Of a stretch of 64,000 bases of DNA, positions 28,052 to 52,743 are shown piece by piece. Made by a program: the position numbers and the translations under genes. The notes under the pieces are model-generated. The model had not been told where the DNA came from. It saw only the letters and a list, made by a program, of their open reading frames with translations, and made no database searches. This DNA comes from Brachycybe producta. Taxonomy: Eukaryota > Arthropoda > Diplopoda > Playtdesmida > Andrognathidae. Positions within the stretch are counted from its first letter, which is position 1. The number at the start of each line of letters is the position of its first letter. Location of the stretch: positions 977,001 through 1,041,000 of the forward strand of contig JAUPFP010000006.1 of the NCBI GenBank assembly GCA_036925085.1, given 5' to 3'.

Positions 28052-28418
28052 GGTGGGTCCAGAGACTCCAGACTATAGAACAGAACAACGGACAGAACAC
28101 ATTGTTCGTAGAACAGTATGAACGGTTTTCCTAACATTTCTCTGTAACAAATTTTGTTTGAACCTGTTCTGTTCGGCTTCGATCCACCAGTTGTCGTTTT
28201 TTGCCCGTCACATGAAAGGATGTTCGTGTTCTGGCCAGGAGTAGTTTAATTGGACGTCTCAACGAACATTTGATTGAACATCGATCAGTCATTGGCGGTT
28301 CTGACAACAGCTGAGGTTACCAATTAGGAACATGTTCTCTTTAAGTTTGGATACTCTTGTCACAGTAAACAGAACAACGAACATGTTCTGTTCTAGTCGG
28401 AACAATCCCCCCCCCCCA
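28052..28418. repeat. Family-E foldback
   Basis: GGGTGGGTCCAGAGACTCCA and TAGAACAGAACAACGGACAG at left; AACAGAACAACGAACATGTT and GTTCTAGTCGGAACAATCC at right; inner part shared with 48.5-48.8 kb. Confidence 0.7.
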
Positions 28419-28594: not shown

Positions 28595-31500
28595 TTATGG
28601 TTGATTGACAATGGGCGAGCACTGTTCCTTTCGAACTTTCTCAATGGAGTTCATTAGGGTTTTTCCAAAATAGGTGCTTCGAAAGGAGGTCTTGTCAGGC
28701 CAAAGAGTCACCCAAACATTTTCATCCAAAATATAAAGAAAACTAAAAAAAACAAACAATAAGATTATCATTTGAGTGAATCTAAACGATATGAAACCCT
28801 AAAAAAAGCCTAAAAAGGACATAAAGGGATATGTATAGTCACCTGTTAGAATTATCCGGATTTTTATACTGATGAGAACTACTTCCAAACACAAGGTAAG
28901 TATTTTCAGGTTCCATTGTTGGACATTTGCAGGTGGATCTTCCATAAAATGTTTTGTTATCTCCTTCGGATGTATTTTTATCTTCTGTTTCTGAAACATT
29001 CCACGAAGAATCAACAACAACAACAATTACCATTCTTCAAATCAATTGTCCTCAAATTATTGACTGACCATTAAGCAGAACTTCATTGATGACGGCTGTC
29101 ATTTTCATCAGTGGAATGGACTGTTCAATGGCTTTACTTTTAACAGTGATGATCCATCCTAAACGAATGAAAAGTTTGTATAAATTGATGGTCTTCAGTG
29201 AGGCTTTTGAGCACATATTGTTACCGTATATATGCGTATTGCATATCATTTGGTAGATATCTTCTGCTGTTCTTTGGTGAACTGCACTTTCAAAGGCGTT
29301 GCAAGGTGGACAATCTCCTGTAAGGAACACATTGTTTGCTAAGTACTGTATTAATTTACAACTGAAGGGAATTGCAGAGCTGTAACTAAACAAGGACAAT
29401 GTGATCATTGTGATGTCTCAGGCCCTAAGCGATCAGGATGCAAAAATAGGGGCACCAGTTTTGTTCTTGCCTCGGGTGTAAAATTAGCAAAGTTACGATT
29501 CTTGAAAAGTGCAGTCTTTTCTCACCCTGAATGCAGCTGCACAGGTCGTCGTTACACTCAGCTGGATCTTCTTCCTCTCCAGTGATGAGAGAGTAGAACG
29601 TCACAGTTGATATTTCTGGTTCGTAGTAACGGTACACTTTGATTCGAACAGGTTTCAAATCGGCAACCATGTTCTCTTGCCGAAAACGTACTGGAATGAT
29701 GATGAAGTTTGGTTCTATTGGAACCTGAAAATAAAAATGCCGATCATTGGAAGTTATGTGACAGTCAGATGTAACATGTTTTCGATTTTTTTTTGCCTCG
29801 TTCAAGTACAGAATTAGCGACAGTTCGAGGATTTCAAAGTGAGTAATGAGTCTTTGGCTGTCTTTTGAATCTCGAATCTGAATATAGATGTTAAATATTA
29901 GTGATTGTGCTGCTTTTGTGTAGCATTAAAACTGGTTTTATATAATTGTACTTTCAAAAGCTGAGATCGATCCGGAATGAAACCAGTTGGAATTCCAACG
30001 TCCACTACAACCATACCGGATTTTTCTTTCAGTTGCGTATCGTATCTTAAAAAAAGTTTCCTAACTTAGTCCTCGTTCGTACATTTGTTTTGTCATAATT
30101 ACCCAATTTTAATATTAAGTGTTGAAACATGAGTGCTGATTCTTTTGAAACCGGTTTGTCTTCTAGAACGACTCGGAACTTCTACTTAAAAAAAAAGCTT
30201 AGTATGTTAAATCGAAGAAGCGGCTTCTTTTCAATTATCTTTACCCGCTCCATCGCTGATTGTTGTGCTTATTTTTAGCTAAAATTGAAAAGAGGGCTCA
30301 TTTATTGTTTAAATATTTCTACTACAAAACCGTTCTTACTGGTGACTCAGTTTTATTGGACTCGATGGTGTTGTAACTTATGTCCAGTGTGGCAGAGACT
30401 ATTCCATTGCCCTCAGCTTCTACTCTCACCGTGTTTCCAGTTGGCACCTGTCGAAATTTGAATTTGAATAATTAATGTTTAAGCACCTCCAAAGGGGACA
30501 ATTTAGTCCAAAAACTGCGTAAGAAATATGCATTGTCACACATGCCATTGGTTTGCAAACCTCAATTTTGTTGAGAACATTAGATGACCTTTCGTCTATT
30601 GACACATTGCTGATGAGGACATTTCCTCCATATACTCTTATTTGGCTTTTGGTGCCATTAAGTTTGGTCATTTTCTTTCCGTATGCTGCAAGAGCTTGTA
30701 AAGTAACTATCGTGTCCTGTGTACAAGTATTTTTTGCATCATTGAATTTATTTTGTACTTCGATGTGCATTATAAAAAACTAGGGCTCGTACGTGAGTTG
30801 AGACGAAAGATCCTTTGCTGTTTCGCTGGGAATTTAACCAGGAGACAGTTGAACCGGCGTTATGGCTCTGGTTAGCATACACTTGGCTCAAAAGGGCAAA
30901 GGCTGTTATTTCAACAGCTATGGCTGTGGAGTGAGTAGCGTACGTCCATGGTTTATTGGCTTTAATCAAATCTAATTCTTCTTTGCTACTAACCCAGTAT
31001 CGATATCCTGAAATTGTGCCGAAAAAAGGTTCCTATAAACTCTGTTACGACTCACTGCAAATACTTTAACCTTTATCATCAATGGAGAGTTTCTCGAGAA
31101 GTGTGAAAGCTTCGATTCCTTTTTTGCTGTTGGCCTCTAGAAGTGCCGTTGTTACAAGAGCTAGAATGTATGGTTGTTTGGTTATGTTCGCCAGGTTGCT
31201 CTCCATAAATGTAACAGCTTTTTCTAAAGCTGTTTCATAATTAACAACCTGGATATATTTAAACATAAGAATGTATAACTATTCAACAACAACCAATTCT
31301 TCAGATTTTGAACTTCACTTGCCACGTCTTTGTATAGTTTACATGCAACGAGAGACCTCACGACAAGTGCCGTTTGAGGCAGTGGTCCACTTAGTTCGCC
31401 CTAAATTAATCGGAAGTCTTTTAGTTAGTTTGTGTGGGTATGTTTGGTCAGTTGCATCTAACATACCAGTGTGGGATGAGGCACAGAATCTATTTTGTCA

Positions 31501-34500
31501 AAAATGGCACCATCAGTTGACTGTTTTGCGAGAATCCTGTCATAGTCTTTCTGGATAGTGTCTTTATTTAGTGTGATGTAAGGCGATGCATCACATAAAA
31601 CCTTCATTGCAAATGCTGTTAACCTGTAATGATTATAATTATTAGTAAAAAAAAAAAAAGTAACTTGTAATGCCAAGTGATAACTTTTATTTTACCAGAT
31701 GGTGGCAGGAGATTCCTTCCAAACAGAGTACCCTCCATTTATCTTTCGAAACTTCAACGCGTTTGCATAACCTATGCAATGCAACATCTTCAAAATAATT
31801 GGTTATAAGAATGCAACAGGCAAAAATTTACCCGTGCGCAACAGTTCTCTGGTTTGTTCTCGAGTTTCGTTTGTAAGCCGTTTCGTGTCTTCTAGATATC
31901 TTGTGACGTACAGAACACCAGCCATTGTTGCAAGTGTCTGTTCGCCACAACCTGTTGGCATTTCGAACAATCCATCTAGACCAATAATGTTTGTATCGAC
32001 GGCAGGTCCAACGATGTCTCCTATTTTAGAAATTGACGTGTATGAAGAATGTTTCTATTGGTTGACAGTTATTTACGAACCAATAAGGTACAAATGACTT
32101 TGAATAGTTCCAGGGATTGCATTTTTTGGTGGTATGACATCCCACTCGATGAATGATTTGTTTGGTTGTGTTGCTGTATCCACTGTAACAATTTAAAAAA
32201 AAAAATTGGATCCAGTTCGAGCAGATACACCATGACCACATTGTGGTCACTAACTCTGAATTCCCAGTGAATGTTGAACAATCTTGGATGATCTTTGAAG
32301 AGAATTTGAAGGATCCAACAAAGCTGTGGAGAACTTATTTTGCCTGATGCCTTCAAACTGAAGAGTGGAAACGACAATAAATGGAACATGGCTTGAATTA
32401 TATTTTGAAAATGGAAAGTTTAGTATTTTACTATGACTGTCAGTTGTCTTATGACTACGTCTGATCCCAAAAGCGATAGTGCTTCAACACGAATGTCGAA
32501 CTTTCCTGTCTTAGTAGGCACTAACTGAAATTTGTGAGATGCTTCTCCTTTAGGCAACACGATCAATCGGTGTTGTTTCCCTCTCACTCCATTTTTGGCA
32601 GCCTCGCAACAGATCCCATCAATACCATAGATTGCAACTCGGACCTGTGTCCATACATACACTGATTATTCAATTATAGGAATTTCTAATTATTCATCTA
32701 ATGTATAGTGCCTACAATTGCTCTTTCGTTGCCGTAATTGAAAACGGTTGCTATCAATTCTAAAGTTTCCGATCGAACTGCTACATAAGGCAATTTGACC
32801 TGTATGAAAAGAGCTTTCTTCACTGTCATTGAAAGCTCATCACTTACACAGAAACCTGCAAAATCATAAATTATTTTTTTAGTAATCCACGAGATAAATT
32901 ATGTTTCGAAAAGATATTACCAGTTTTTTGAGAAATGGCAAGAGACTGAAACGACCAAGTGGTGATACTGTCCGGAACTATAAATGGAAGGTGACAAGAT
33001 GCAAATTCGGAATTATCGAGTTTGCATTTAGAATCTCTAAAAAAAAATGAACAAAAAATTAAGCATTTCTATAAATTTTGCGCAAGTGTCAAGTCTCACC
33101 CAACTTCAAAGTCTTCATAAAGCCACGTTTCTGGGAATTGTTTTCTTACGTCCAGTTCATCAGCTTCTACTTCATCCAGTCCTTCTTCATCATCAATTGC
33201 CGAGCTTCTACCCCAAGAGTGAGGTATTCCCGAGCGGGGCACAAAGGGGGTCATGAAATCTAATTTAGTAAGCGTTCCTTCACTTTCTTCGAGACCTGTG
33301 AATAAAAATATTAGCAAAAGAACACCAAAAACAGTAATTAGCTAACAGTTTGCTAATTAAACTTCACTACTGCTTACAAGATGTCATTGCCGTTATAACA
33401 TTTTCTACAGGACAGCATTCTTCGTACGCATTCAGACAAGTTTCGTCTGCTCCATACGTGCAATATACGTCTTCGGAGATAAAACATATTCCGATCTCTT
33501 CATTAAAACCTGATTGAGCTTCTTCGCAACAGATTGATCGTATAGTGCCTTAATAAAAAAGTAAATATTATTCGGTTCATGATTATTTTACGATTAAAGT
33601 ACCGGCATCTCTTTTTCGACGACTACGACCATTGTTGTTGCTGTTATACCGACTATTATGGTTGTTAGGAAGAAGGACCACAACTCCAGCATTCTAGAAT
33701 AAAACGAATTGTGGTTCAGAATGTTCAATTTTTAACAATATAATCATAAACATCGAACACAAACTTTTAGGACGTCTGTAACTGTTACACCTCCTCCAGG
33801 ACCTCTTCCCAAGTCGCATTCATCCATTGCCTGAAAGACCTGCCACGGAAATCGAAGAATTTTTAACAATGTTTAATAGTAGTACGTCTATGTGATATTA
33901 TATGCACCTTTGGCTTGGTTAGAGTTGAAGTGTTTCGTAAAAGGAAGATCGATTTATCCACAGCCATCACACCAACGTGAGAGTTCTCTTCTCCGATCAC
34001 GTTAAGCCATCCTTCTTCTTTGGGTACATATTGAGCTCGGTTCTCCCATAAGCTAATTTGTAACTAATGAAATTGTGCAGTCACTAAATTTCAATTCAGA
34101 TATCTTTGTTTGTCGTATACATACTTCTTTCCGTTGATTGTATTCACATCTATGTTCTACTTCGAGTCGAAGGCTGTCCATTATAAGATGGCCATCGACA
34201 AGAGAGTAAACGACAAGACGAGACGAAGGTGCCATCTGAGCAGTTACTTCAAAACGGATTATTCTCGTGTACGTTTTGCCTTTGATTTCTGGTTCACCCC
34301 AAAATGTTATTACTCCTCGAGTAATTATCTATAGAATGGTTGTTATAAGTCAACAGTGACTTACTACAGTCGAATACGAACACGGGTCAACATACGAAAT
34401 AGTGAACTTGATCGTTGTTACTAGCTGGTGTGAAAAACACTTCTGTGTGAAAGATGGATCCGACACGCAGAACCTTATCTGCTGGACGTATCCATAAATA

Positions 34501-36934
34501 TCCAGCTACGGCTGACTGATGTTCAATTACGATCAGTGACCCTCTGCCGTTGGATTCGTCTGGAAGTTTCGTATCTTTCGTGACTATTTGGGCCATCAGT
34601 TTCTTCGTGTTGAGTGGAACTGATATCGTGAAGCTTGCTGCTCCGTTTTCATCCGTTTCTTGCAGAAGAGGAGGGACTGATGCAGAGTGTTGGGCATTGG
34701 GTGTCTTCAGTTCTAGTTTTTCGAGGACTACATTGACACCCACAGCCGGTTCTCCATTAGGGTATTTTACGTCGACCTGTAGTAAAATCATGTAACATTT
34801 GAGCTTGTTTTACGTTAAGCCAAGTCAACTGAACCTGAATGCTGTAAGAAAATCCAGGTTTGAAGTCTGGAAGTGACCGTCCAAAGGAAATGTGGTATTG
34901 AGATTTGACGAACATAGTTTCTTCATTTCGTCTTGTTTCCTGTGTGCCTGTTGCCACTTCCGTAACCATAGCCTCAATCACGAACTTGTAGTTGTGAATA
35001 TTCGGAAACCATGGAATGGAAGTCATACTTTGAAGGTCTAACATGTTCACGGTTGATATGGTTTCTCCTCTTGCTGCTATAGTTCCAGGAAGTGTACCGA
35101 TTTTCACTTCGTTACCCGATTTATCTTTGACGTAATATGTAAGCGAAACGATAGCATTTACTGGTTCTCCATAAACATATCTAGAAATTGAATTACAGAA
35201 CAAATTTTTTTTGCTAGAATGAAAACCATTACTACATTGTAACGTATACTTCGAGATTATTCTGCATTCGATGGTTTTTGTATGTGGCAGAATATATTTT
35301 GGCACTTCAATTTTGACTTCAAATGTTGGCAACACTTGAAATGACAAGTGGAAATGTTTTCATTGGACATGAATATGAAAATTTCTAAACAAAAAAATAT
35401 TCACCATATTCTCGAACTTCGAAGGTGATGTTCTTTTGACATAAAAACTATTTTTTTTTTTAAAAAAAGAGAACAGAATTGTGAATTTTGATGAATTCAT
35501 GTTTATGTTTGTGAATTGTCAGTTACTTTGTAGCCATGTTTGATATTCATTGTCCACATTCCTAGGTTAGGATCTGTTGGTATCGAATAAGAAAACGGTA
35601 GAATTCCGTTGGATTTTTGATAATTCATTTCATCTCGTTGAACTGTAATCCGATGCGGATTCTATCGAAAAGATTAGGCGTTAATTAATAATGTGCATTG
35701 TTTTGCATAATTGAGGGTCTGGACTAACCAGAATTTCAATTAACATTGGACTTCCATTTCCATATGGTTTCAGAAAGTTATCTGTTAAGATGATTCTAGC
35801 TTTTACTGTGAAAAGCAGAAAGTTTCCATCATTAATTAAGCATTGAAAAATTCAGAGTGTCCAAAGTGACCAATCAATGTTCATGCAGTTACTCGATAAA
35901 CTGCATAGCAGCAACAATCACACATACCTTGTTGTCCAGGTGTGTAAATCGGTTTGTCCAGTTGTATGAAAACGTTACCGTAACATAGTGTTATTTTGAC
36001 GTTAGAAACCGATCGAAATGCCAGACCTTGATGTTTAAAATAACACAATGAGTGATGTTCCATGATTATACAACACCTGAACGCTATTATTAATTTACCT
36101 TTCACTTCGGCTTCCAATTCTGCCGAAATCATCAGAGTTTTTGAAGGAGCAATACTGTTACGGTTTGCTTCGATTATTGGAAGTGACAAAGGCATCGTAC
36201 CAAAATCGATAGTTAATACCGTCTTCACGGTTTCACCTGTAATTAGTTACGAACAACATTTAAACAATGGCATACACATTGAATCCAAATACGTCAAGAA
36301 TGAACACTGGCCAATTTTAATCCCGATCGTTTTAGTCATTAACGGTGACGCGAATTGTGGCGATGTCACACGGACGATCACTTCGGAGTCTTTGCGTAAA
36401 TTGATCGCTTTTAGCAAAAGAGTTTCTTCGGCTTCCAAGTGGAATGTGTCTGGTGCCAAAACAAGAACTCCACTAAGTTCCTTGACGTTTCTTCTACGGT
36501 TCGTGTTGATGGTTCTACTTTCCATGTTGAAAGCACCAGGATGCCACACTGGGCTGGAAATAAACATTAATTAAAGGTCGACATTGGATCTCATTTTAAA
36601 AATGTAAATATACGGCGGCTCGTAGATACATATTTTGTCGACTTGCAGCATATTGCGATGATGGTATCACATTTGGTCTTCTAAAAATGGGCGAAGGCCT
36701 TGACCATGGCCAAAGACGAGTTGTTGTTCTGGCATTTAAATCCAAACGGCTACATTCAAAAAGAATAAAATCCATCAATTATATATGCAAAGTTGCAACA
36801 ATATTTTTTGGTATAATTTCTTACTGGTTTAGTATCGGAGTTCTCGGATTTTCGAATGAAAACATACCAAAACATTGCAGTAATTGTAAATAGATGAATG
36901 TGAACACACAAAAATTAGACTTGACCATCCTCAT
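28595..36934 (-). CDS. C3: Complement C3-like thioester protein (complete, about 1785 aa)
   Basis: About 38 exons on the minus strand. First exons 36934..36868, 36548..36276, 36236..36099, 36026..35928; last 29158..29069, 28990..28843, 28742..28595. In order: signal peptide; macroglobulin domains (FIQLDKPIYTPGQQ); furin site RRKR at about 715-718; anaphylatoxin domain 727-766 (CC...C...C...C...CC); CUB; thioester domain with GCGEQ (Cys about 1092) and the matching His at about 1205 (SVPHPT), spaced almost as in human C3; receptor-binding domain; C345C/NTR domain (CKCP) to the stop. These are the parts of C3/C4/C5, which bind microbes covalently after cleavage; the protein should be secreted. 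A second basic site RSRR lies at about 1473-1476. Two micro-exons (28 bp at 35432..35405; 34 bp at 30278..30245) are needed for frame. A 51-bp intron at 29775..29725 is probable; without it the protein has 17 more residues. The donor at 31313 is weak. Confidence 0.9.
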
Positions 36935-38711
36935 GATTATTATTGCGGTTGACTCAACCTAGTGTTGATTGATAAATAAGATATTCAACACTCTTCGTCT
37001 GTTCTGAAGCACTTTTATGTTGGTCGTCTATATATTATAAATTGACTGAACATCAACTGTTTTGATACAAAGGTCAAAAAGTAATATGATATCTTTATGA
37101 GTTAACGTTTCTTTTGTATGGTTGAATCATTTTTTCGAAGAACTGTTCACTGAGGAAGAAGACAAGCATCCAAATATTAATAAAAATAACTTCCAAAACT
37201 TAATATATTGTTGAAAGTATTATTGGTTAAATGAAAGCTACTGAAGCTAAATTTACTGTCTCATTAACTTTAAGTATTATTACTGAAGTTATTATTACTT
37301 GAAGTTAATAAAACAGTAAAATAGTCTAAAAAGTAATTGTGTAACAATTACTCAATTACTTTTTAGACCTTTTTCAGTATATGACAATAGCTCAATCCTA
37401 CGAGCAGGGAGCGAGTGTATTTATGAGTTACTCTTTTATCTAATGTGATTTTCAAGTTAACTTCTTCACAATTGTGTGAACAGCCACATTTGATTGTACG
37501 TGATTAAGTAATTATGTGAAAGAGTAACTGATAAATTATACATTTTCAGTGTAACTGAACTTCAAAAAAGTTATTAGTTACTTCTGTTTATTTTTTTTTA
37601 TAAACCACTGTTCAGAGATGTGTAGTAATTGAGATAATTAATAAGTTACATGTGATTAAAAGTAGCTCGTAACTGTAAGTTGGGTAAAAATCAGGGTTGT
37701 AGAAAGGTAGTTTAATCACTTCAGGGTATTTCATATTGATATCTTTCAAAATAAAGTTTTTAGTGACGCTTCTAGTTTCTAAAACACATTCAAGTTTCTT
37801 TTCATTTCAAAGAAAGAATAATCAAGAGTTCGAGAGGCCCCGTTTACACTTTAAAACAACCTCTTAAATTAGTGATTTGATTTAACTTGAAATCAATCTC
37901 GCTGCAATCAAAGAAAATAAAGATGTGATTTCAATGTTAGAAAAAGTTACGCATTTTACCTAATTAACAAGATATGTTTAGAGGCTAAAATTTTAAGATA
38001 AATCTTTATTACGTGATTAGTATTTCTGAAAGAACTCTAGCCTATAAACAGTCTTTTTTAATTAAGAAATAATGCATAATTTTTTTCGCCTTAAACATTA
38101 TTTGATTCAATGATTTCTTTAGCAGTGTGTGACATCACGTCCATAGAAATACACATATGTGACGTCACACTGCTGAATAAATCGGATGAATAACGGGGAA
38201 TAGGCATTAAGTAAAATAAAAACAAATTGTAGTTTTACTTACAAATCATTCAACACAAAAAAAATAAACTAAACGAAGATACATATTCACAAAAAATAAC
38301 CTTTATTAATTACATCTTGTTTAAATAAATTATATCCGAATTTTTTTTTTTTTTTTTCGGTTTTACATTTTGATTTGTTAGAACTTTCAACTTAATTTTT
38401 TACAGGCACAATTGTGTACAAAAAAAAAGAACAATTTCAATTCTCGAATTGTGAAGTTATCTTTCGAGAACAACAAAGATTATTAATTTTACATTTAAGG
38501 TGAAACAGGTTTTTAAGTAAATTGTTTAAGATTCAAATTCCTCGAATCTTAATAACGATGCAAACAAACAAAATATCACAAAACATAACAAAATCACGTT
38601 GCAAAAATGAATTAGTACCACAAACAAACAACAAGTACAATTGCATTATTCTCGAGAGTTGGTTGGTGTTTTTTTTTTCACAGTCCGGGTTATAGTTTAA
38701 TGTATGTATTG
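36935..38711. other. Intergenic, between the C3-like gene and the two-CCP gene
   Basis: The promoter of the C3-like gene should lie just above 36934. Around 37200-37700 are several AGTAATT/AATTACT phrases of a dispersed repeat also seen at 15100-15420, and a partial family-A copy at 37690-37868. No gene seen. Confidence 0.5.
37690..37868. repeat. Family-A partial copy
   Basis: Shortened left arm joined to a right arm. Confidence 0.55.
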
Positions 38712-41700
38712 TCACGAGCTAGCTGTTCTGGTCGCTTCTTCATAGCTTGGAGGTGCTTCTTCGTATCTAGGTGGCGGTGTCTGAAAACCATAACAAAAGG
38801 ACCACATGTCAGTAAATCTTCCCGAGGTTTTGTATTTTTCAAAAGTTGTTGTTTTGCAAACAGGATGAAACAGATGATTTTTACAAACTGCGGTTATTAT
38901 GCGTTTCAGAAAGCAAAATTAAGGAGAAATTGAAAAGTGTATTAGAAACTGGCACGGGTAGTTGAATAATGGTATTTTCATATTGATATCTTTCAAAATG
39001 AACTTTTTAGGGACCAAAAATTAAAAAAATAGTCATCTTAAAGGTCATTTTGAACACGACAAGCTTATTTTGAACACGAAAAGCTTATTTTGAACACGAA
39101 AAGCTTATTTTGAACACGACAAGCTTATTTTGAACACGACAAGCTTATTTTGAACACGACAAGCTTATTTTGAACACGAAAAGCTTATTTTGAACACGAC
39201 AAGCTTATTTTAAACGATATCATCCTGAAAATAGCCTTAAGTGATTGAGCTACCCTTGTAGTTTCTAAAACACTTCGAAAGTATCTCTTAATTTTGCTCC
39301 CAAAAGACACAATAATCTGAATTTGAGGTATATGTTTACACTTCAAAACCACTTTAATATAATACTCACTTGCGATTTCATCATCGTATCCAACGGATGT
39401 TGAGTAAAATCAGCAATGGATCGAATGTCCGTCATAGGCACTTGTCGGTTGTCATGATAACGATCGGTCGTACGTCCACGGTTATTATTTCCGGTCGAAA
39501 GAGGAAAATCACCCGCATAATCGTACGATCCTGCATGTGTTCCGTTGGGATCTGGACGACATACACCTCCTTTACGAAACCCACAGATCACAGCTCCGGC
39601 TACGACAGCAATACCGAACATGACGACGGCAAACTCTGTCCTTCCATCATCGTAATCAAACGAGCTCGTTCCGTTTCTGTCAAAGTTGCGTTTCACGCCT
39701 GTCGTAGGTACATCTATGTAGAAATGAAAGTTGTTACTTTTAAACGTAATAAAGAACGATAAAAACAATCACAAGAAATTGAAACAAACAATCATCGTCA
39801 CTGGATCCAAATGTTGGGATGCATTTCGGTTTCGTCCATTCGGAAGTGGAGTAACCGAATCTCCACTGTCCTTTAATGTTGCAGTAAAGTGCAGCTCTGG
39901 AAGAGGGTATCGTGTAACCTTCTTCGCAAGTGTAACGAACTCTCGTTCCGATCGGATACGTCTTCTGGTGGAATACATGGGTCATTCCGTTCTCTATCGA
40001 TGGCGGTGGTCCACACACTAAAAGAGTAAAGCAGGGATACACCGTTGAATAAACAGTCAACAGTCGTTTTAAGATGTGTTCAGTTAATTAAGGTGGATTT
40101 TAAATGTAAATGAACCTCAAACTCTTATTATTCTGTCTTTCGAGAGTAAAATTAACAAAAACTTGAATGTATTTAAGAAAGTGGAAGCGTAGCTCAATTA
40201 CTTTAGGCTATTTTCATGTTGACATCTTTCAAAATAAGCTTTTTTATGTTCAAAATAAGCTTTAAGCGGACGATATTTTTTAAAATTTTTGTCTATAAAA
40301 AGTTTATTTTGAAAGATAACAACCATGAAAATACCTTTTAAATGATTCAATTACCCATTCTAGTTTTTACCACAATTTCTATTTCTCCTTAGTGTTGCTC
40401 TTCTGAAACGCAGATTAACTTTGCGAGATCTTTGTTTGATTTAGTGTTTAGTTGTGGAAAGAAAAGCTTTTGAAAAAGTTTCGTAAAAACGTACTTATCT
40501 GTTCGCATATCGGGAATGCGTTGGACGACCACCGTCCGGTGTCTTCCATGCATTCGTACGTATCGATCGGACCCTGAAGAGCGTACTTGAAGAGACAACG
40601 GTATCGTACTACAGTTCCTAATGGGACTCCCGTCTCTCCAGTTTCGACTATCTTGAAACTGTCTTCGATGCTCAAGTTGTGAAGTGAATTCGGTATTCTC
40701 GGTAAAATACAGAATTCATCTGAATTGAGAGAAAGACAGAGAGAGAGAGAGAGAAAATAAGATTACGACAATCTCAATCCAATCTCGGCTGTCTTAAATC
40801 CCAAAAATTAAAGAAGAAAACTTAGAAAACTGGAACTTCAACTTGAATTCTCTAAGCAAAGGGTTCCAATATAGTAAAACCCTGTTTTATTGAGTATCTT
40901 TGAAAAAGGTTTCTCTGTTTTAGGCTCGATACAGATGATTAATTATGTGGATTGCCAATCCTGGTTTTTCAGTTGAAAACTTGATTGTGTATGTGGTGGA
41001 TTTCGGTATTTCAGTCCAACTTTTGGAGATTTCTTTCGAAACAGTAGACACTTAGCCTTTATGTACAAGGTTGCAACTTATGAACAGCGGATTTTCTGTT
41101 TTTTAATAACAAAATTAAGAGAAACTGTAAAGTATTTTAGAAACTAGAAGGGTAGCTTAATCAATTAAGGGTGTTTTAATTTTGATATTTTCAAAATAAA
41201 CTTCTTGTGGGCAAAAAATTAAAACATCATCTGTTTAAAATTGGGTCATTTTCACAAACTGACATATAAAAACCTTATTTTGAATGACATCAACATGAAA
41301 ATACCCTTAAAAAGATTCAGTTACCCATCTAGTTCCTAAAACACATTCTTGTTTCTCTTCATTTTGCGCCTAAAATACAGAATAATCATAGTTCGAGATA
41401 CGTTTACCCTTTAAAACCACCTTAATCAGAAAAAAAAAATACCCGAACTTCTATTGTTCTTCAATCTTGACTTGGACGATCAGTGGTGATTTTGAGAAAC
41501 GATCAAGGAATGACAAGCCAGGATCGATCAATCGCCTGCAATTATAGCTTTAGAACCCCTATACTCAAGAGGGTTTCAACGGCACAATATGTTTTCTTCT
41601 TGAATTTGAGGCGTTATTTCTCATTGTTTTCGAAACAGAAATGAACTTATAATGGTGTATACCAGATGAATTCGTTGACGAAGTGCTGAGGAGAACGTCA

Positions 41701-41783
41701 TCGTCAGATCGACACTTCCAAGGACCATTGATAAAACTCATTACTAGTAATGGTATTACTGAAAACGGTATCGATGGCAACAT
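38712..41783 (-). CDS. Type I membrane protein with two CCP (sushi) domains and a PPxY tail (324 aa)
   Basis: Exons complement(join(38712..38780,39370..39713,39802..40017,40495..40719,41663..41783)); GT/AG boundaries, phase 1 between the domains. Signal peptide 1-20; CCP1 about 44-112 (CILPRIPNSL...PFPIC type, four cysteines) and CCP2 about 117-182 (CGPPPSIENG start, four cysteines), each in its own exon; a short spacer; membrane span about 215-233 (FAVVMFGIAVVAGAVICGF); and a cytoplasmic tail of about 90 residues ending TPPPRYEEAPPSYEEA, with two PPxY motifs of the kind bound by WW domains (Nedd4-type ligases). CCP pairs are typical of complement regulators and receptors. The gene lies 1.8 kb upstream of the C3-like gene on the same strand, so a complement role is plausible but inferred. 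Family-A repeats fill introns 2, 3 and 4. Confidence 0.85.
38860..39358. repeat. Family-A MITE with internal 20-bp tandem expansion (intron 4 of two-CCP gene)
   Basis: Both arms; the centre holds the tandem repeat listed separately. Confidence 0.75.
39041..39213. repeat. 20-bp tandem repeat inside a family-A element
   Basis: Unit AAGCTTATTTTGAACACGA plus C or A, seven full units at 39061-39200 and partial units on each side. The unit is the family-A arm phrase AAGCTTATTTTGAAAGA... altered and amplified. Confidence 0.95.
40083..40440. repeat. Family-A foldback MITE (intron 2 of two-CCP gene)
   Basis: Begins TTAATTAAGGTGGATTTTAA; both arms present. Confidence 0.7.
41070..41425. repeat. Family-A foldback MITE (intron 1 of two-CCP gene)
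   Basis: Both arms; right end CTTTAAAACCACCTTAA. Confidence 0.75.
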
Positions 41784-42698
41784 CGTTTTATCCCGCCCAG
41801 TTTTGGATTCTGAAGACTTTTAATTTTTTTTTTAACCTTCTAATCAAATCCTATATAGAAAACAAAACGATTGATTGATTTAAATCTAAATTACGATCGT
41901 TGTAATATTTTAAGGACATACGGTGTCCAATTCAGAATATTTTTTTTACCTTTGAGGATCTTCTCTTTCCTACGTTATGTTTTCATTGTTGTGTAATTAT
42001 TATTATCCATATGTTTCTACGAAAGTCCATTCCATTCTTTAGAATTGCGATTACAATTGGAAAATTTTTTACCTAATAATGATAATAATATAGGTGGAGC
42101 GCGAGGTTTTTTCTAAGTAAAAGTCAGTCTGAGGAAATCCCTCTAGTGTTTATCGCAAACGTTTTTTCATTGGATGCCATTCAGCCTGATTGACGTCATC
42201 GGAAGTGGTTTCACACCGATTGTACTAATTTTCACAACCATCGTCTGCATACTTTTGACTGCCCCTTGAAAGCAGCAATCACTCAACATCATTATCATCG
42301 GGTCTCTCTTTAAGATTGGTTTGGTGTAAACGTAGCATATTAGAATGCTATAGAGTTGTATTTCAGATGGAATTTTTTTTTGTTTTGTTTTCGAATTTCA
42401 TCTTGAACTCTCTCCACATATGAAAAAAATTGCGGTTTTATTCAGTATTTATTTAAAAAGGGTTATTTCTATGTTCAAACCCTGCTCGGAGAGTAGGCAG
42501 AGGACTTAAAGGGACACGTTTTCCTTTTGAATTTGAGTCCCTTTGTCATTCTCCTGATGAAATGTGAAAACTTAAAATGCTTAAAATAAAGTTAAACTTA
42601 AACACTGTGATGCAAGACAAAACTCCATAGAAAGTCTATGAAGAGTTTTTAAGTTTAGCTTTAAGTTTTACTTTGGCTTAAGATAATGCTTTAGAATA

Positions 42699-43100
42699 GG
42701 GTCAGGATAAAAAGATGAACGAATGAACGGGATGAACAGTGGGGTAACTCTAAAACCCGACACAGAATGCATATATAATAAGATGAACACTATATCATGG
42801 ATGAACACACATTTTAAAGGGATGACCAGAGAAATAAAAGGATGAACATGGTTTTAGGTTAGGTTAGATAACCTAACCTAACCGAACCAAACCCCATAAA
42901 ACCATGTTCATTCCCCTTAAACCCATGTTCATCCCTTTAAAGTATGTTCATCCTTTTATTTCTCTCTGTTCATCCCTTTAAAATGTGTGTTCATTAATTA
43001 AAATATAGTGTTAATCTAATTCTATATGCATTCTGTGTCGGGTTTTAAGAGTTACCCCACTGTTCATCCCGTTCATTCGTTCATCTTTTTATCCGGACCC
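42699..43100. mobile_element. Family-D foldback, 402 bp, with 9-bp target-site duplication
   Basis: Arms GGGTCAGGATAAAAAGATGA and complement, repeating AACGGGATGAACAGTGGGG and GATGAAC phrases. TTTAGAATA on both sides (42690-42698, 43101-43109). A 9-bp duplication again suggests a Mutator-like family. Confidence 0.85.
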
Positions 43101-43169
43101 TTTAGAATATGACCATTAGAGTTGCTTATAAACCTAGTGATCTCTCAAAAAACAAAGTGAAATTCATAA

Positions 43170-43265
43170 AATTACCATCATAAAAGGTTTATTTTGAAAG
43201 ATATATCGATTTGAAATTATATTTTAGTAATTCCTTTACTCTTCTAGTTTGTAAAAAAAAAAAGA
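43170..43265. repeat. Family-A right-arm fragment
   Basis: AGGTTTATTTTGAAAGATAT then CTCTTCTAGTTTGTAAA. Confidence 0.5.
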
Positions 43266-43795
43266 TTAAAAAGACGATGATGAAATCCACTAGTGTCCTC
43301 TGGTCCTTTCTAATGTTTGAACGATTGTTTCAAAATAAAAAAAATTACAGAATATACACAAAAAAAATGAATTTATTATAATGACAAATGATTATTTTTA
43401 TTAATTTTTCTTCAGCCCGAATAATATACAAAAATGAAATGAAAAGTTAATACACAGAAATATACAAGAAATTATAAAATTCTTAAGTGTGAGATTCAAG
43501 ATTTTGTTCATTCTTATTAAATACGAGGGATGAATTTTATGCTATTTAAATATATTTCTTAAAAAAAAAACACACACCAATAATAATTACAAAGTAATTT
43601 AAGTAACAAAAAGTTCAAAATCTTTGAGTCCAGCTATTTACTTAAGTGTGTTTCACACACAATACAGATAATTTTTTTAAAAAATTACAAGTCGAAATAG
43701 AAAAAAGATAAAGGCACGCCGCACACACAATTACACTCAAAAGTTAATTTAACTTTTAGTTAATTTTTGAATTTTACAAAAGTTTATACTGTATA

Positions 43796-44022
43796 TGGGT
43801 TTGGGTTTTTATGAAAAATATCAAGCAAAAATGTTTCTCAATTTGTAGCTCAAATGCCGATTGTGAAGTAGATCAACTGTAATATTATGCTTTTTTTCTA
43901 ATCAAAAAGGCTGGTTAGAGCCTAGAGGGGCTAGATGTCTGGTTAATATCAGTTGTCAACTAGTGTTCTGACCTCTAAACAGTGTTTGTTGGTTGATATT
44001 GCATAAAAATCCGACCCCTAAT
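43796..44022. mobile_element. Family-C hAT-like MITE, diverged
   Basis: Shares GTTTCTCAATTTGTAGCTCA and AATATCAGTTGTCAACTAG with the other copies; ends eroded and no clear duplication. Confidence 0.7.
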
Positions 44023-44788
44023 GATTACAAATTGAAATTTGGAAAAAACGAGTGCAAATATCTGTATGTCAGGGTAGATAAAAGTCACGATTTTTAAAAA
44101 AAAAATAGTTTTAAAAATTAGTTTAAAAATTTCATAAAATTGTTCCATTATCAATCCATCAAAATTCTGTTTGTTAATAGTTCCTTTCTTTTATTTGTCT
44201 TTAAATGAAACAGAATGTGCCATGGACACAACCTGGTAACCATCCGTTTGACAAAACCCACCTGTTTACACCAAATATCAAGTAAATATGACCGAGAACT
44301 GTACGTGAATTCGAACATTGGTTCTATACAAATCTATTACTTATAAATAAAAATGTACACAAATATTTCCGAGCATTTTTGGAACATTTTTTGGTCCCAT
44401 TTTGCTTTTTGTTAAAGGGATATATGACTATATACACAGACTAAAACATTAAAGACATGGTGAGGTAGGTTTACAGAATATTGTTTTAAAAAATGAAGCC
44501 AACATTGAATCTAGAATCGGAAGCAATTTTTTTTAAAAGAAATTCAAAGTTTACTTGAAAGTTGAAACTAGTATGGCATTTTTTAAAAAGACGAGTATCG
44601 TTGTTGTAATTTACTTTTTAAATTGCAATTAAAAGTTTTACTTTAAAAAGTTATTGTAATTTCGGGTAATTTCATTTGTTTTACTTCTCTGGTTTCAAAT
44701 AAAACTGTGAATTCATTTTAAAAGTTGCTTTATAAAAAGCTTAGGGAAACCTCATGTCTAATTCTAAAAAATGTCCTCTGGATACATC

Positions 44789-46498
44789 TTAAACAGCGGC
44801 TGGAGTTGTGGTTGGTTTATAAACGACTTCGGTATGAGTTGCAGGTGGTACCTGAAAAGTAATAAAAGTAAAACAACAATTTGAATGAAATAACATCACA
44901 AAAAGATGATCGAAGAAAGTATGTTACTTGATTCAGAGGGTATGATTCTGGTGGATACATTCCTCCTCCTTGTCCATCTGGTGGTGGATACGGGTAATTA
45001 GTTCCCGGTGGCGGATACGAACCTTGTGGTGGATACGAACCCGGTGGTGCATACATTCCAGGTTGAGCCGGATAAGAACCCGGAGGTGGATACATTCCTG
45101 GTTGAGTTGGATAAGTTCCCGGTGGTGGATGCGACACAGTAGTTGTGATTGTTGCTCCACTTAAAACCATAGCCTGTTGTCTAGCTTTCAGTCTGTTATA
45201 GCGAATGTATCTAATGGCCGAACATACTCCAAGCAATGCGACGATAATTACGATGGCAATGATACTCTCACCGGCCGACCAACTTTTTCGTTTCTTGTAT
45301 GGTTTCGTATTGCTATTGGGAAAGCCGTCGTCATAATAATCTGTTGTTCCAAAATAAACGGAAATAAGTAACCAGACAATTAGTTTTGTTAATTTGCAAA
45401 GCATTTTATTATAGGGAGTTAATGCAATTTTTGCATTGCAGTTTCAATAGCAACACTAAGAAGCAATTGAAACAAACTAGAACAGTTTAGTATTTTCATG
45501 TTGATATCTTTCAAAGTAAACTTTTTACAATTACAAATCTTTAAAAAAAAAACATACTGTTTGCTTAAAGTTTTAGGTTATTTTCAAACTCAACATGAAA
45601 AGCGTAGCCTACTTTGAAAGATATCAGTATGAAGATACTTTTAAATGATTGAGCTACCCTTCTAGTTTCTAAAACTTTTAGAATTTCTCGTAATTTTTCT
45701 TCTGAAAAACAGAATAATTATAGTTCGATGGGGGTGTTTGAACTTTAGGAGATTATCACTTCTAAACTAAAGAAGTTCGAACAGAGTTACTCTTCTAGTT
45801 TCTAAATATGCTTCGAATAATTTTCTGAAAGTTGCTTTCAAAACGGGTCAGGATAAAAAGATGAACGAATGAACGGGATGAACATTGGGGTAACTGTAAA
45901 ACCCGACACAGAATGCATATAGAAACAACTTTAAAAGTTTAATTCTACGTTTGTTAGAAACTAGAATAGTTCGTGGGGGGAAAAGAGTGACGGGTGATAT
46001 CTTACAAAATGTACTAACAAATGTTTATTTTCAAAGATATCGTTATGAAAATATTAATTCATTCGTTTTCTTGGACTCTTCTTCTAGTTTTAAAACAAAT
46101 CTTGAATTCTGTTCTAAATCTCTTTACCGTAATCTGTCATGTTGCCGTAATAATCAATTACACACTTTGGAAACTCCACATTTGGATTTTGCTGTCCATT
46201 CTTCGAAACAACTTCCCAATTGTTTCCAATACAAATAATTCTATTGTATCTAGAAGATATTTTGTAGTTTTCGTCACAGACATAAAAATAATGTTCTCGT
46301 ACTTCATAGTTTTCATTTTTAGAACTTGGCACTCTTATGGCATTACCGTGAGTAATGGTTGGAGGCGTGTCACAACCTTAATAAAATAACAAAATTGATA
46401 TTAATAACGGTATCATTTTGATTATTACTTGTTATATACTTACCATTTGCTATGGAGGCTAGCATTGCAAAAAGCAATGCATAAAACAGCAATGACAT
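44789..46498 (-). CDS. Type I membrane protein with one CCP domain and proline/tyrosine-rich tail (259 aa)
   Basis: Exons complement(join(44789..44851,44928..45340,46128..46376,46444..46498)). Signal peptide MSLLFYALLFAMLASIANG; one CCP domain from CDTPPTITHG to FPKC (four cysteines); juxtamembrane segment rich in Asp/Tyr then Lys/Arg; membrane span about 127-145 (SIIAIVIIVALLGVCSAIRY); then a tail of about 110 residues made of repeats such as PPPGSYPAQPGMY and ending YKPTTTPAAV. Gene plan, phases, the LASIANG/LVSIANG signal ending and the small separate last exon match the neighbour at 49-51 kb, so the two are paralogs. The same exon also opens further upstream (Met at 46573), but that extension has no signal-peptide character, so I start at 46498. 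The tail resembles those of Shisa-like and other PY-rich adaptors. The ligand is unknown. Confidence 0.82.
45410..45770. repeat. Family-A foldback MITE (intron of one-CCP gene)
   Basis: Both arms present, central part AT-rich. Confidence 0.7.
45780..46125. repeat. Family-A pieces split by a family-D fragment (intron of one-CCP gene)
   Basis: Arm pieces at 45780-45845 and about 45945-46120 flank a family-D piece at 45846-45921. The last piece reaches within a few bases of the CCP exon donor at 46127. Confidence 0.6.
45846..45921. repeat. Family-D fragment
   Basis: GGGTCAGGATAAAAAGATGA to GACACAGAATGCATAT, the outer part of one arm only, inside family-A pieces. Confidence 0.75.
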
Positions 46499-47284
46499 AT
46501 AACGGTCGAGAACGGTAGAACCGAGCCTAATTTTGGCTACGGTGGAGGTGGCCCACAAATCCATACCTTGCATGTTTGTAATCTGTTAGGAAATTGTGAT
46601 TTGTGTCAAAAAAACACTTGCGATGTGAGCTGCAGCTCAGCTGCCCCTCCTTTCTACCCTATGAAGGATACATATAAGACTCCAGAATGTCGTTGTTTGC
46701 TTGTTTTTTGGATTCAAACGAGTTTTATCGATTCTCTGCTAAGAGTGTCCTTCAGTATTATAGCCTCTAACTCATGTCTCTCTCCTTGGTTTGTCCTTTA
46801 TTCGTGTTGCCATGTTGTCTGTGATGTCATGAGTTTGATGTCCTCTTGTTTTAGGGCCCAAATTCAAGAAAGAAAACGGTATAATACTTATATAGTGGGT
46901 CCTCGCTGTTTTAAATAAACTATAGCTCGTTGGAAAAGTCTTGTCGAGTTGAGTACGTATATGTTAAAATTTTGTTTGAGGAAAATCTCAAAATGGGCAA
47001 AAAGCGCGTGTAAAAGTTAAAATTTACATATGGAGGTCTATGGCATTTTTTTTTTTAAATAAAAGTAATTATGCCTTAAATGTATTGAGGGTAATTAGCT
47101 AGATTACGTTAGGTTAGGCTTTGGGAGTAGTCCCCCCCCCCCCAAGTCCGTAATAATAATTATCATTTGATTTAAAAATGATAGGTTATTCCGCACGCAC
47201 TCATGTTAACATAATTCCAAAAAAAAAATCTTTTCAAATGACTAAAATCAATTTATGCAATTTCAATTATAATTATTATTACGT

Positions 47285-47645
47285 TTTAATTAAGGTGGTT
47301 TTATTCTGTCTTTCAGGAGAAAATTTAGGAAAATTTGAAAGTGTTTTAGAAGTTAAAAGGGGTAACTCCAATAACTTATGAGCATTTTCATGTTGATATC
47401 TTTTAAAATAAACGTTTTGTCTCAGTTTGAAAATTACTCAACTTTGAATGGACGAGGTATTTTATACCCTGGCATTTTTTTTTTAAATCTTCGTCTATAC
47501 AAAGTTCATTTTGTAAAATATCAACATGAAAATGTTTGTAATTACACATTCTAGTTTCTAAAAACACTTTTAATTTTTCCTTGTTTTTCTGAAATGCAGA
47601 ATAAGCAGAATTCCAAAATCACCTGTTCATAAAACATCTTAAGAG
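47285..47645. repeat. Family-A foldback MITE
   Basis: Begins TTAATTAAGGTGGTTTTATT; both arms. Confidence 0.75.
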
Positions 47646-47760
47646 AAATGTAATAATGTTCAGTTTTGTTTATCTTAAGTTTAATTGCACTTTTAATTAA
47701 TACGAAAACATGAAACAATATGATGATTATGACAGAAAGAACTGTAAATTAGGTGATGAG

Positions 47761-48041
47761 TAGGGCTCAGATTTTGATGCAATATCAACCGGAATGTTTC
47801 TCAATTTCTGGCTCAAGAGCCAACTGCAATTATGTTATTTTTAATCAAAAAAGCTGGGTAGAGAGGCTATAATGTCTGGTTACTATCAGTTGTCAACTAG
47901 AGTTCTAGCCTCTAACCATTGTTTTTAATTAAAAAGAACAATTTTTTTTATTATCTAAACGAGATTGTTACTTCACAATTGGCACTTGGGCCACATATTG
48001 AGAAACATTCCGGTTGATACTGCATCAAAATCTGAGCCCTA
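47761..48041. mobile_element. Family-C hAT-like MITE, 281 bp, with exact 8-bp target-site duplication
   Basis: Ends TAGGGCTCAGATTTTGATGC and the exact complement. GTGATGAG on both sides (47753-47760 and 48042-48049). TAGGG ends with an 8-bp duplication fit hAT elements. Confidence 0.88.
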
Positions 48042-48509
48042 GTGATGAGTCAGTATGTTTCTGTTAACAATACTTGTAATTAACATAACATTCTTTGGTA
48101 TCTGATGAAAAAAATATTAACAAAATATCTAGAAAAAAAAATTAATATTTCTAAACAAAATAAAAGCAAATACAAAAGCGATTTCTAACTTTTAGAAAGA
48201 GTTGTAAATATTAACAATAACAGTAATAACATTGTAAATGTAAGTATCAATATTAAATTGATTTTTGTTCATATAAAATATGAAAATCAATATGAGATTC
48301 AAAACTAAGTTTTAAGTCTTATTTGTAAAACATTACATAAAAATATATTTGGAACATCGAAATTTATTAAATCATAAACAAAAACAGTCATAAAAAATCA
48401 CCGAGATACTAAAATGAAATGACAAGATCATTGGAAGACTGCATTTAGAAATAACAGGCGAACCACCAACTTACGAAATAGAATGTCTTCTTTAAAATGT
48501 GTTTGTAGC

Positions 48510-48838
48510 AGTGGGTCCAGGCATATAACAGAGCACTGTTCGCAAATAGTGTTAGCGGTTTTCCGAAACATTTCTCTAACAAATTTTGTTCGAACCTGTT
48601 CTGTTTGCCCCCGATTCACCAGTTGTTGGTTTTTGCCCGTCACATCATAGGATGTTAGTGTGTTCGGGCCAAGAGTAGTTTTCACGTCTGGGCGAATATT
48701 TCCTCAGCATTCATTATTAGGCTACCAACTGGGAACACGTTGCAAACATGTTCTATTCAAGTTGAACACTCCGGCCACAGTGAACAGAACAACAAACATG
48801 TTCTGTTCGTTGTTTTGTTCTAGTCTGGACCCACCCTA
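48510..48838. repeat. Family-E foldback
   Basis: AGTGGGTCCAGGCATATAAC to TAGTCTGGACCCACCCTAAG; same inside phrases (TTGTTCGAACCTGTTCTGTT) as the 28-kb copy. Confidence 0.7.
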
Positions 48839-49018
48839 AGATGCACTGTTAAACTTGTGCTTCATAAGATGTCTATAATAAGCGCGGAAGGTTCAGTGTT
48901 CGTTAAAAGAATTGCGAGTCGCAACGTTCGTAAATACTAATTGTTTATAAGTTGAGGTTCGACTGTACGTTCGTAAAAAGAAAACCAAGGACGGTGATCA
49001 GTAAGGTGCCGATGGAGT

Positions 49019-51399
49019 TCAGGTCGATTTATAAACTGCGTCATTGTAAGGTGGTGGTGGTGCCTAAAAATGTATAAAAACACAAAACTTGAATTCAAAC
49101 TTAAAACGCGAGAAAATAAACAAAAGCTTGCTTACATCTAAATTGAAACTATCGTTTTTCGATGATTGTGAAGTCAGAGGGTAAGTTTCCATTGGATCTA
49201 TTCCTCCTTGCATTGGATAAGATAATCCTTGCGGTGCAGGTGGTGCACTGGCAGGAGCAAAGACAACAGGCCCAGTGGTCAGCATAGGTGGAGGACCAGT
49301 GTAATTGGTGGGAGGGACGTATTCGGTTGTCGCTATACCGTTGACGATAATGGCACGGGTTCGGCTACTTTCTCTGCAACCGCGTCGCATATGCCAAAAG
49401 ATTATGATCATAACGAAAGCGATGGTCACGGTAATGACGACATATTTTAATGTAGTCCGTTCAGGCTTTTTTTTCGCGACGGTATTGTAGAAATCTGTGT
49501 CTGTTGCATCATATAATTTAACAAAGCAAATAACAGCATGTTTTAGTTTTTTCTCATTTTTCGGAAGAGTAAACGAAAATACATTGATGTTTTTCACAAT
49601 AGTATTTTTGAAAATAGACTTTTTTCTTCTAATTTTTAGTTTGCTAATTAGCTGTTAAAGTGGTTTTAAAGCGTAAAAGTCCATTGAAAAAAGCAAAATT
49701 TGGAAAAACTTGAAAGTATTTCGGGAAGCTTAGAAGGGTAGCTCAGTCACTTAACGGTATTTTCACGTTTGATATCTGTTAAAATAAACTTTTTATGTTA
49801 GTTTGAAAATGACCCAACTTTAACTGTAAAAAGTTTATTTTGAAAGATATATTCAACGTGAAAATTCAAATGTAATTCAACTACCCGTTCTAGTTTCTGA
49901 AACACTTTCTAATTTTTCTTTATTTTGCACCTAAAAGATAGAATAATCAAGAATTCGGTAAAATGCGTTCTCGTCTTATTTTCTGTACAACAAACGTTCG
50001 ATCTTTGGGATTATATACTTATTAATATACCAGAAGACGAAGAGGTAGGCTGCTTCTTTATACACTGTGGAAAGTCAAGCTGCACATAACTAGGTCCAAA
50101 TCCCACAGTAGTTTTCCATGTAAGATCACTTTCGCAGCGAACTGTGTCCAAAAGAACCTTTTCGTAGCCGTAGTTGCAGATATATTTGTACTGCGTTCCG
50201 ATTTTATTTGTCGATTCCCAACTGAAGACCTTCTCGACATAGCCATTTTCAATTGTCGGAGGAGGTCCACATTCTATATGAAATTAATAAAAATGAAGCC
50301 AAACTGAGTCTGATTTTTTTTTATTAATTTCTCATTTCTGTGGAGGACCTTTTTGACGACATATCGTGTGAACCTTCGGAGACCATTTTCCACCGTGAAT
50401 ACATTCAAACGGTCCAACTGTAGAACCACTTTCCAGAAAGTAATCGTTCTCGCAATTGAATTTAACGCCGGTTCCAACACCGTATGCTGTTTTTTTATTA
50501 TTGATCGAAAAGCTTTCGTCTCCAGCCACAATGTCTGGACTGGCACCACTGACGTGTGGTAAAATGCAAAATAAGTCTGGATCTGAAACAAAAATGGAAT
50601 CATCAATACGTGTACGAAGGCAACATTTAAATTGAATTGACATTTACCTATACAAATTTGTGATTTACAGCAACGTAATTTATCCGCATCACCCGTCCAC
50701 TTCCCATCGAGGCACGTAAACGTTCCGCTACTGTCCTTTCCTTTGGTGAACCCCACGCCACAGGTGTAAGTGACATTTGCACCGTTCTTGTATCTTCCAT
50801 TTGGAAGTTTTAGTCCCTTGTATTCGTAAGTGGCATCTTTAATGTCTCGAGGAGTGTCACAGTTGGAACCTGTTACGAGTACGAGGATACAAGTTGAAAT
50901 GGTTTATGAAACTCTGGTTATTTCTGTTTTTCATAGGAGTAAAATTAAGAAAAACTAGAAAGTGTTTTAGAAACTATAGAAGGGTGGGCACCTTAATCAC
51001 TGAAGACGTTTTTTCATGTTGCTATCTTTCAAAATACACTTTTTATATTACAAAAATTTAAAAATAATCGTCTGCTTAAAGTTAGATCATTTTCAAACTG
51101 ACATGAAAAAGTTTATTTTGAAAGATATCAACTTTGAAGTGATTGAGCGACCCTTCTAGTTTCTAAACCACATTCAAGTTTATCTTCAATTTGTACCTGA
51201 AAGACAGAACAATCAAGAGTTTGAGAGGCGTTTATACAGCTTTAAAACCACCTTTTAGTATAGTTGTCCACTGCTTTGTAAATCACAATCATGCACACAC
51301 AAACACATAATTTACATAATTACCATTTGCAATGGACACCAACATTACAAGACACAGAGTTTGGAATAGCAATGTCAGATTCAATCTGACAGTGTCCAT
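49019..51399 (-). CDS. Type I membrane protein with three CCP domains and PPPY tail (394 aa)
   Basis: Exons complement(join(49019..49063,49136..49500,50031..50273,50349..50582,50648..50869,51324..51399)); total 1185 nt, all introns phase 1 until the last. Signal peptide 1-26 (ends LVSIANG), then three CCP domains, one per exon (starting CDTPRDIKD, CILPHVSGA and CGPPPTIENG, four cysteines each, plus an extra CC and C after the first), a membrane span about 276-294 (TLKYVVITVTIAFVMIIIF), a basic stop-transfer (HMRRGCR), and a proline-rich tail ending APPPPYNDAVYKST, where PPPY is a WW-binding motif. The order CDTP, CILP, CGPPP matches the domains found singly or in pairs in the two neighbours, as if the cluster shuffled one ancestral set. 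The frame is open upstream of the chosen Met through a low-complexity repeat, so the start is a judgement. Confidence 0.85.
49648..49960. repeat. Family-A foldback MITE (intron of three-CCP gene)
   Basis: Both arms; left end GTTAAAGTGGTTTTAAAGCG. Confidence 0.7.
50900..51256. repeat. Family-A foldback MITE (intron 1 of three-CCP gene)
   Basis: Both arms, right end CTTTAAAACCACCTTTTAG. Confidence 0.75.
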
Positions 51400-52476: not shown

Positions 52477-52743
52477 TCAAATTTTACATAAAAACCAAAA
52501 CAAGAACCGACTAAATAATACATTAAAAAAACTTTCAAGACGTCGTGGTGTCGAGAAACTGACTGAAAAAGTCCGTTGCTGTTCGTTTAGTACGAAAGAA
52601 CATATCGAATTTAAGGCTAGCACTTTGGCAACAATGTTATCTCTCTTGAAGTAGACAGTGTCACTCGAAAGAGACAAGAGTCCTCTAGAGAAACTGTCAT
52701 GGAAGGGCCGATCACCGAAATCGACAGACTCGACGGTGTCCAT
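52477..52743 (-). CDS. Doubtful 88-aa open frame
   Basis: Single open frame starting MDTVESVDFGDRPFHDSF and ending in a hydrophobic stretch. An AATAAA-like signal on the same strand lies about 80 bp beyond the stop, near 52400. Base composition over the first 200 bp is more balanced than the flanks. I recognise no domain and see no paralog in the window. It could be a terminal exon of a gene whose other exons I cannot find, or chance. Confidence 0.25.
   Translation of the reverse strand: MDTVESVDFGDRPFHDSFSRGLLSLSSDTVYFKRDNIVAKVLALNSICSFVLNEQQRTFSVSFSTPRRLESFFNVLFSRFLFWFLCKI

Follow-up and report, generated by a model that had tools for sequence, protein, structure and literature searches.

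The window analysed here is the whole 64,000-nucleotide stretch G000:C6:977001-1041000 of the millipede Brachycybe producta (genome of 295.3 Mb in 442 contigs). It carries four minus-strand genes in a row: a gene for a complement C3-like protein and, upstream of it, three genes for membrane proteins with complement control protein (CCP, or Sushi) domains, here called CCP-C, CCP-B and CCP-A in that order. The neighbourhood is real, and its chance placement is unlikely. A working partnership of the C3-like gene and the CCP genes is plausible, and the best functional guess, which we hold tentatively, is that the locus consists of a C3-like opsonin gene and tandem genes for type I CCP membrane proteins, which would serve as receptors or co-receptors and not regulate by decay acceleration or as cofactors. 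A chance neighbourhood is about equally likely. Homology with the vertebrate cluster of complement regulators, of which a previous sequence-only reading had seen a possible invertebrate counterpart, is unsupported.

Receptors and regulators for protostome C3-like proteins are little known. In the literature examined, the sole arthropod CCP receptor described as binding a member of the TEP family is the Aedes membrane receptor SR-C; its ligand is the N-terminal part of AaMCR, a TEP without a thioester (PMC3983052). The cluster offers three concrete candidate receptors or regulators, together with a built-in control, the paralogue of CCP-A on another contig (C1). It also suggests a connection, open to test, from complement-type modules to NEDD4-type ubiquitin ligases. 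Its parts are of known kinds and their arrangement is a variant; no report of linkage between C3 and CCP membrane genes was found in the literature searched, mostly by titles and abstract openings. If the linkage turns out to be conserved, it would be an arrangement without precedent in that literature.

The C3-like gene and the three CCP genes

The gene models were spliced by hand from splice-site consensus and reading frame. The four genes, their order and their strand are those of the sequence-only reading, as are the outer ends of the models at 28595 and 51399. CCP-C lies 1.8 kb upstream of the C3-like gene, and the following intergenic gaps are 3.0 and 2.4 kb. The features are as follows (positions in the window):

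28595..36934, minus strand: C3-like gene, 39 exons, 1,814 aa, single frame without stop (spliced model; Pfam; PDB matches)
28595..29317, minus strand: last four exons of the C3-like gene, C345C/NTR domain (PF01759, 2.8e-14, aa 1680-1789)
31832..32020, minus strand: thioester-motif exon, GCGEQ at aa 1127 (sequence)
33378..33548, minus strand: exon with anaphylatoxin-like cysteine pattern (sequence; Pfam ANATO unmatched)
33603..33693, minus strand: exon carrying the basic sequence RRKR at aa 751, a candidate for alpha-beta processing (sequence)
38712..41783, minus strand: CCP-C, signal peptide, two CCPs, transmembrane segment, tail with PPRY and PPSY; 5 exons, 324 aa (model, Pfam Sushi)
38712..38780, minus strand: last exon of CCP-C, two PPxY motifs (sequence)
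39370..39713, minus strand: transmembrane exon of CCP-C (hydrophobic peak 2.57 at aa 215)
44789..46573, minus strand: CCP-B, signal peptide, one CCP, transmembrane segment, proline/tyrosine-rich tail without PPxY; 4 exons, 284 aa (model, Pfam Sushi)
44928..45340, minus strand: transmembrane exon of CCP-B (hydrophobic peak 2.61 at aa 151)
49019..51399, minus strand: CCP-A, signal peptide, three CCPs, transmembrane segment, tail with PPPY; 6 exons, 394 aa (model, Pfam Sushi)
49019..49063, minus strand: last exon of CCP-A, PPPY motif (sequence)
49136..49500, minus strand: transmembrane exon of CCP-A (hydrophobic peak 2.37 at aa 275)

The description of the first gene as a full C3-like gene is borne out by Pfam, which places TED (2e-68), A2M (1.1e-21), A2M_recep, A2M_BRD, MG2, MG3, MG4 and NTR/C345C over their cut-offs in the spliced protein; MG1 reaches 16.7 bits, below its cut-off of 23.6. 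Exons 1-3 have the least certain splices of the model, and one intron has a GC donor. Judged by phmmer bits against the PDB, a ranking without a tree, the protein appears nearer to C3/C4/C5 (C5 399, C3 359, C4 358) than to CD109 (322), A2M (250) or TEP1 (208). With C3/C4/C5 and the arthropod C3-like proteins it shares the MG domains, a TED with GCGEQ, A2M, C345C and a basic site before an anaphylatoxin-like stretch. It differs from these proteins in having, in a model whose exons 1-3 are uncertain, about 65 residues from the signal peptide to MG1, and in the extra cysteine (by eye) of the anaphylatoxin-like stretch, which Pfam does not recognise as ANATO. An anaphylatoxin domain behind RRKR is suggested by cysteine spacing alone, which is close to that of human C3a; Pfam ANATO gave no match up to E 10 and NCBIfam none. 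Further on, at aa 1509, lies another basic stretch, possibly an alpha-gamma site.

The three CCP genes do share an exon plan and domain starts, as the sequence-only reading had noted. In each of them a signal exon is followed by CCP exons of phase 1, then by the transmembrane exon, and the last exon is short and in phase 0; CDTP is found in CCP-A and CCP-B, and both CILP and CGPPP in CCP-A and CCP-C. That account has to be corrected in that the proteins differ in domain number (three, one and two in CCP-A, CCP-B and CCP-C), and it had not mentioned that CCP-A and CCP-C have PPxY tails; LPxY occurs in none of the three. Sushi is the sole Pfam domain throughout. Paralogy was seen by BLAST, at about 1e-18 between CCP-A and CCP-C over CCP2-CCP3-transmembrane segment and at 1e-5 to 8e-8 between CCP-A and CCP-B. 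The best PDB matches were CD55 for CCP-A, CR1 for CCP-C and factor H module 15-16 for CCP-B, and the closest solved relatives of CCP-A are CD55, CR1, C4BP and factor H; the CCP entries among the PDB matches are mostly complement proteins, with factor XIII B and beta-2-glycoprotein I also present.

A purpose-built CCP profile, read at E under 0.05, added no CCPs to those already known from the window; with the domains of each gene left out in turn, all six held-out CCP exons were recovered (E <= 6.3e-4). The first profile, at E <= 0.1, showed no CCP genes in the 40 kb flanking the window on each side. Nor did it show any around four other TED places, examined over 20 kb each; at C5 this stretch starts inside the gene and so leaves one side uncovered. 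A second profile gave only weak readings in the flanks and at the other TED places (three at E 0.12-0.77), and one of these three, L024:5869-6189, came up at E 0.053 and 0.099 in two control runs. When CCP-A was compared with a set of 5.8 billion proteins, none of the 3,927 word candidates reached E <= 0.001; the set is seemingly animal-poor, and the result is therefore silent on novelty. The last intron of CCP-C (39041-39220) contains a 20-bp tandem repeat, AAGCTTATTTTGAACACGAM.

Genome-wide linkage and CCP relatives

In the whole genome 121 Sushi matches were found, grouping to 22 loci at 50 kb. This is a lower bound, as the search recovered five of the window's six known CCP exons, the one missed being CCP2 of CCP-A. 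Two matches with identical scores on different contigs (C47:1090768 and C48:146877) are probably one locus assembled twice. The TED matches, 19 altogether, fall at seven places taken as genes, and at the sensitivity used only the TED gene of the window has a Sushi neighbour (its lowest TED match and the first Sushi match are 9 kb apart). The second by distance, on C2, is 2.5 Mb from a Sushi match, and the other five have none on their contigs, some of which are short (C52, 1.34 Mb). Under uniform placement, one named gene would have any of the 22 Sushi loci within 10 kb with a probability of 0.0026, and any of four loci of the kind combining CCP, transmembrane segment and PPxY (CCP-TM-PPxY) with a probability of 0.0005; across the seven TED places the figure for any Sushi locus is about 0.015; these are after-the-fact figures of a uniform model, and the Sushi count that enters them is a minimum.

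With CCP-A as the query, 11 matches were obtained in the genome: five in the window, four at C1:18.48 Mb and two in a long CCP-repeat gene on C21. The gene on C1 (L055) is a full paralogue of CCP-A with the same six exons, 454 aa and a PPxY-bearing tail, EPPPSYNDVIYK; 240 of 392 aligned residues are identical (61%). The dN/dS between the two genes, one pairwise estimate, is 0.43, which suggests that both have been kept. Their dS is 0.30 in the CCP1 exons (L055:3296-3517 and window 50648-50869) and 0.99 in CCP3, so that gene conversion between the contigs over the 5' part is likely. Beside the paralogue there is a second reading of CCPs with a transmembrane segment, without PPxY (L055 about 645-1316, by eye). 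Near both copies of CCP-A a similar reading, SVDFGDRPFH..SFSRGLLSL.., occurs (window 52477-52761, minus strand; L055:5114-5347, plus strand), which is a shared repeat or a duplication relic.

The CCP-TM-PPxY kind was also read at C56:440k, in one open frame with PPSY and PPPY, and at C6:1.78 Mb, where separate open frames with PPTY were joined by eye. The latter locus is 0.77 Mb from the TED gene of the window and does not adjoin it. Two further loci, C3:1.432 Mb and C7:145k, have CCPs and a transmembrane-like stretch, with no PPxY in the stretch read. Beyond the window, the reading covered open frames at 14 of 21 Sushi loci, with 3-7 kb taken from each; the loci on C21 and C48 were compared by tblastn only, and C2:9.2M, C3:3.49M, C33, C79 and C127 were left out. 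Given this partial coverage, the four CCP-TM-PPxY loci are a minimum. The CCP family is not tied to the C3 gene, as its CCP-TM-PPxY kind also occurs at three places that have no TED gene beside them.

Receptors, regulators or chance neighbours

If the CCP proteins are receptors, the C3-like protein would be secreted, cut and fixed to surfaces via its thioester, and the CCP ectodomains, exposed on blood cells, would bind the fixed C3-like fragment, the microbe or both. The PPxY tails could then recruit NEDD4-type WW-domain ubiquitin ligases, whereby the bound cargo would be taken up and sorted. The receptor role is supported by the C3-like architecture, the linkage, the PDB matches, the dN/dS value, and the precedents of SUSD4 and SR-C. 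The PPxY tails, which were also read beyond the window in the C1 paralogue and at C56 and C6:1.78M, favour receptor uptake or sorting, and point to trafficking or a receptor function no less than to regulation. SUSD4 is described as a vertebrate CCP membrane protein with a neuronal role, the tail of which binds NEDD4-family ligases in HEK293 cells and synaptosome extracts; the binding is abolished by mutation of LPxY and partly reduced by mutation of PPxY (PMC7972451). The window proteins resemble SUSD4 in architecture, having CCPs, one transmembrane segment and, in two of three cases, PPxY in the tail, and differ in that no tail combines PPxY with LPxY. SUSD4 also has more CCPs. The resemblance to insect SR-C lies in the architecture of a CCP-bearing membrane receptor. 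The SR-C ectodomain has two CCPs and carries further modules (MAM), whereas the window proteins have Sushi domains alone.

Several observations weigh against receptors that serve the C3-like protein. The full CCP-A paralogue on C1 and the CCP-TM-PPxY readings at C56 and C6:1.78 Mb all lie apart from TED genes, and within the window CCP-B has a single CCP and no PPxY. The kappa-B pattern GGGRNWYYCC was absent from the whole window, which gives no hint of common NF-kB control. For WGATAR, the kilobase ahead of each of the four genes has 4, 3, 2 and 3 sites, with a window-wide rate of 1.8 per kb. The window gene may not be the sole C3-like one, and the TED genes at C5, C26 and C78, outside the classified set, could include another that has no CCP neighbours. 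Adjacency of animal genes is often without functional meaning. The three outside loci and the second reading on C1 fit an explanation to which we give somewhat less than an even chance, namely that CCP-TM-PPxY proteins are a general surface family, with roles such as adhesion, synapse and trafficking, whose genes duplicate locally and move, and which shares no function with the C3-like gene. Neuronal CCP membrane proteins do exist, as SUSD4 demonstrates (PMC7972451), but the placement figures, after-the-fact as they are, speak against mere chance. The earlier proposal that physical linkage reflects functional linkage can therefore be kept in part: the linkage is real and found at only one of seven TED places, and binding of a TEP-family protein by a CCP receptor has the precedent of SR-C and AaMCR (PMC3983052), but the family also occurs where there is no TED gene.

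True complement regulators, shielding self cells by dissociation of the C3 convertase or as cofactors in the cleavage of a C3b-like protein in the manner of CD46, CD55 and CR1, seem the least probable of the explanations and quite unlikely. CCP-A, with its three tandem CCPs and its nearest solved relatives, would suit such a role, and the five-motif regulator pattern (M5-M3-M1-M2-M4) has been reported in several invertebrate phyla including Arthropoda (PMC6683126, section 8). The minimal regulatory unit is, however, given as three CCPs for most regulators (PMC6683126, section 6), and CCP-A could thus be a regulator, CCP-B and CCP-C, with one and two CCPs, less so. As far as we are aware, PPxY tails have not been linked to decay or cofactor activity. 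The vertebrate regulators of complement activation (CD46, CD55, CR1, CR2) have CCP-only surface ectodomains and are encoded by tandem genes, features shared by the window proteins, which differ from them in having one to three CCPs, PPxY in two tails, a C3-like neighbour and paralogues on other contigs. With CCP-TM-PPxY genes at three loci away from TED genes, one of them the 61%-identical paralogue of CCP-A, and with two of the proteins below the three-CCP unit, the idea of a counterpart to the vertebrate cluster is not supported.

Returning to the receptor role, its broadest form, which we regard as rather unlikely, would be that an arthropod lineage retaining C3 has brought its opsonin and its own PPxY-tailed CCP receptors together in one cluster, coupling C3 fragments to NEDD4-type ubiquitin sorting, as an independent solution using the module of the vertebrate regulators.

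Other TED genes and the surroundings of the locus

Among arthropods, C3-like genes have been found in Strigamia, Tetranychus and Parasteatoda (PMC4833078), and are reported as lost in Hexapoda and Crustacea (PMC8960428). Such a distribution would by itself point to a chelicerate or a myriapod as the probable source of the window. The MCR clade is present in all eight arthropods of one study (PMC4833078). The TED gene on C52 has an LDL-receptor A stretch at 23.6 bits, just below the cut-off of 24.1, and a TED without GCGEQ (by eye), which together suggest an MCR. At C16:3.085-3.105 Mb (L019-L020) a TEP gene has four alternative copies of an exon containing FPETW or FPESW (by eye), which we take to be like the hypervariable exons of insect Tep2.

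On the plus strand of the window, an UNC-93-like membrane gene (54093-56194; PF05978, 6e-8) stands head to head with CCP-A, and positions 1-22700 hold a tandem run of four or five genes that look like divergent ligand-gated ion channels of the ionotropic-receptor-like sort. Five open frames of the latter region were tested: four matched Lig_chan at 26-29 bits, just below the cut-off of 30.8, and the fifth (1-303) did not. Downstream of the C3-like gene a possible extra gene is seen on the minus strand (26135-26595), of which two open frames were tested and gave no Pfam match. Finally, two repeat copies of 87% identity lie just behind the C3-like gene (28141-28229) and behind CCP-A (48573-48661), and are perhaps a non-autonomous transposon.

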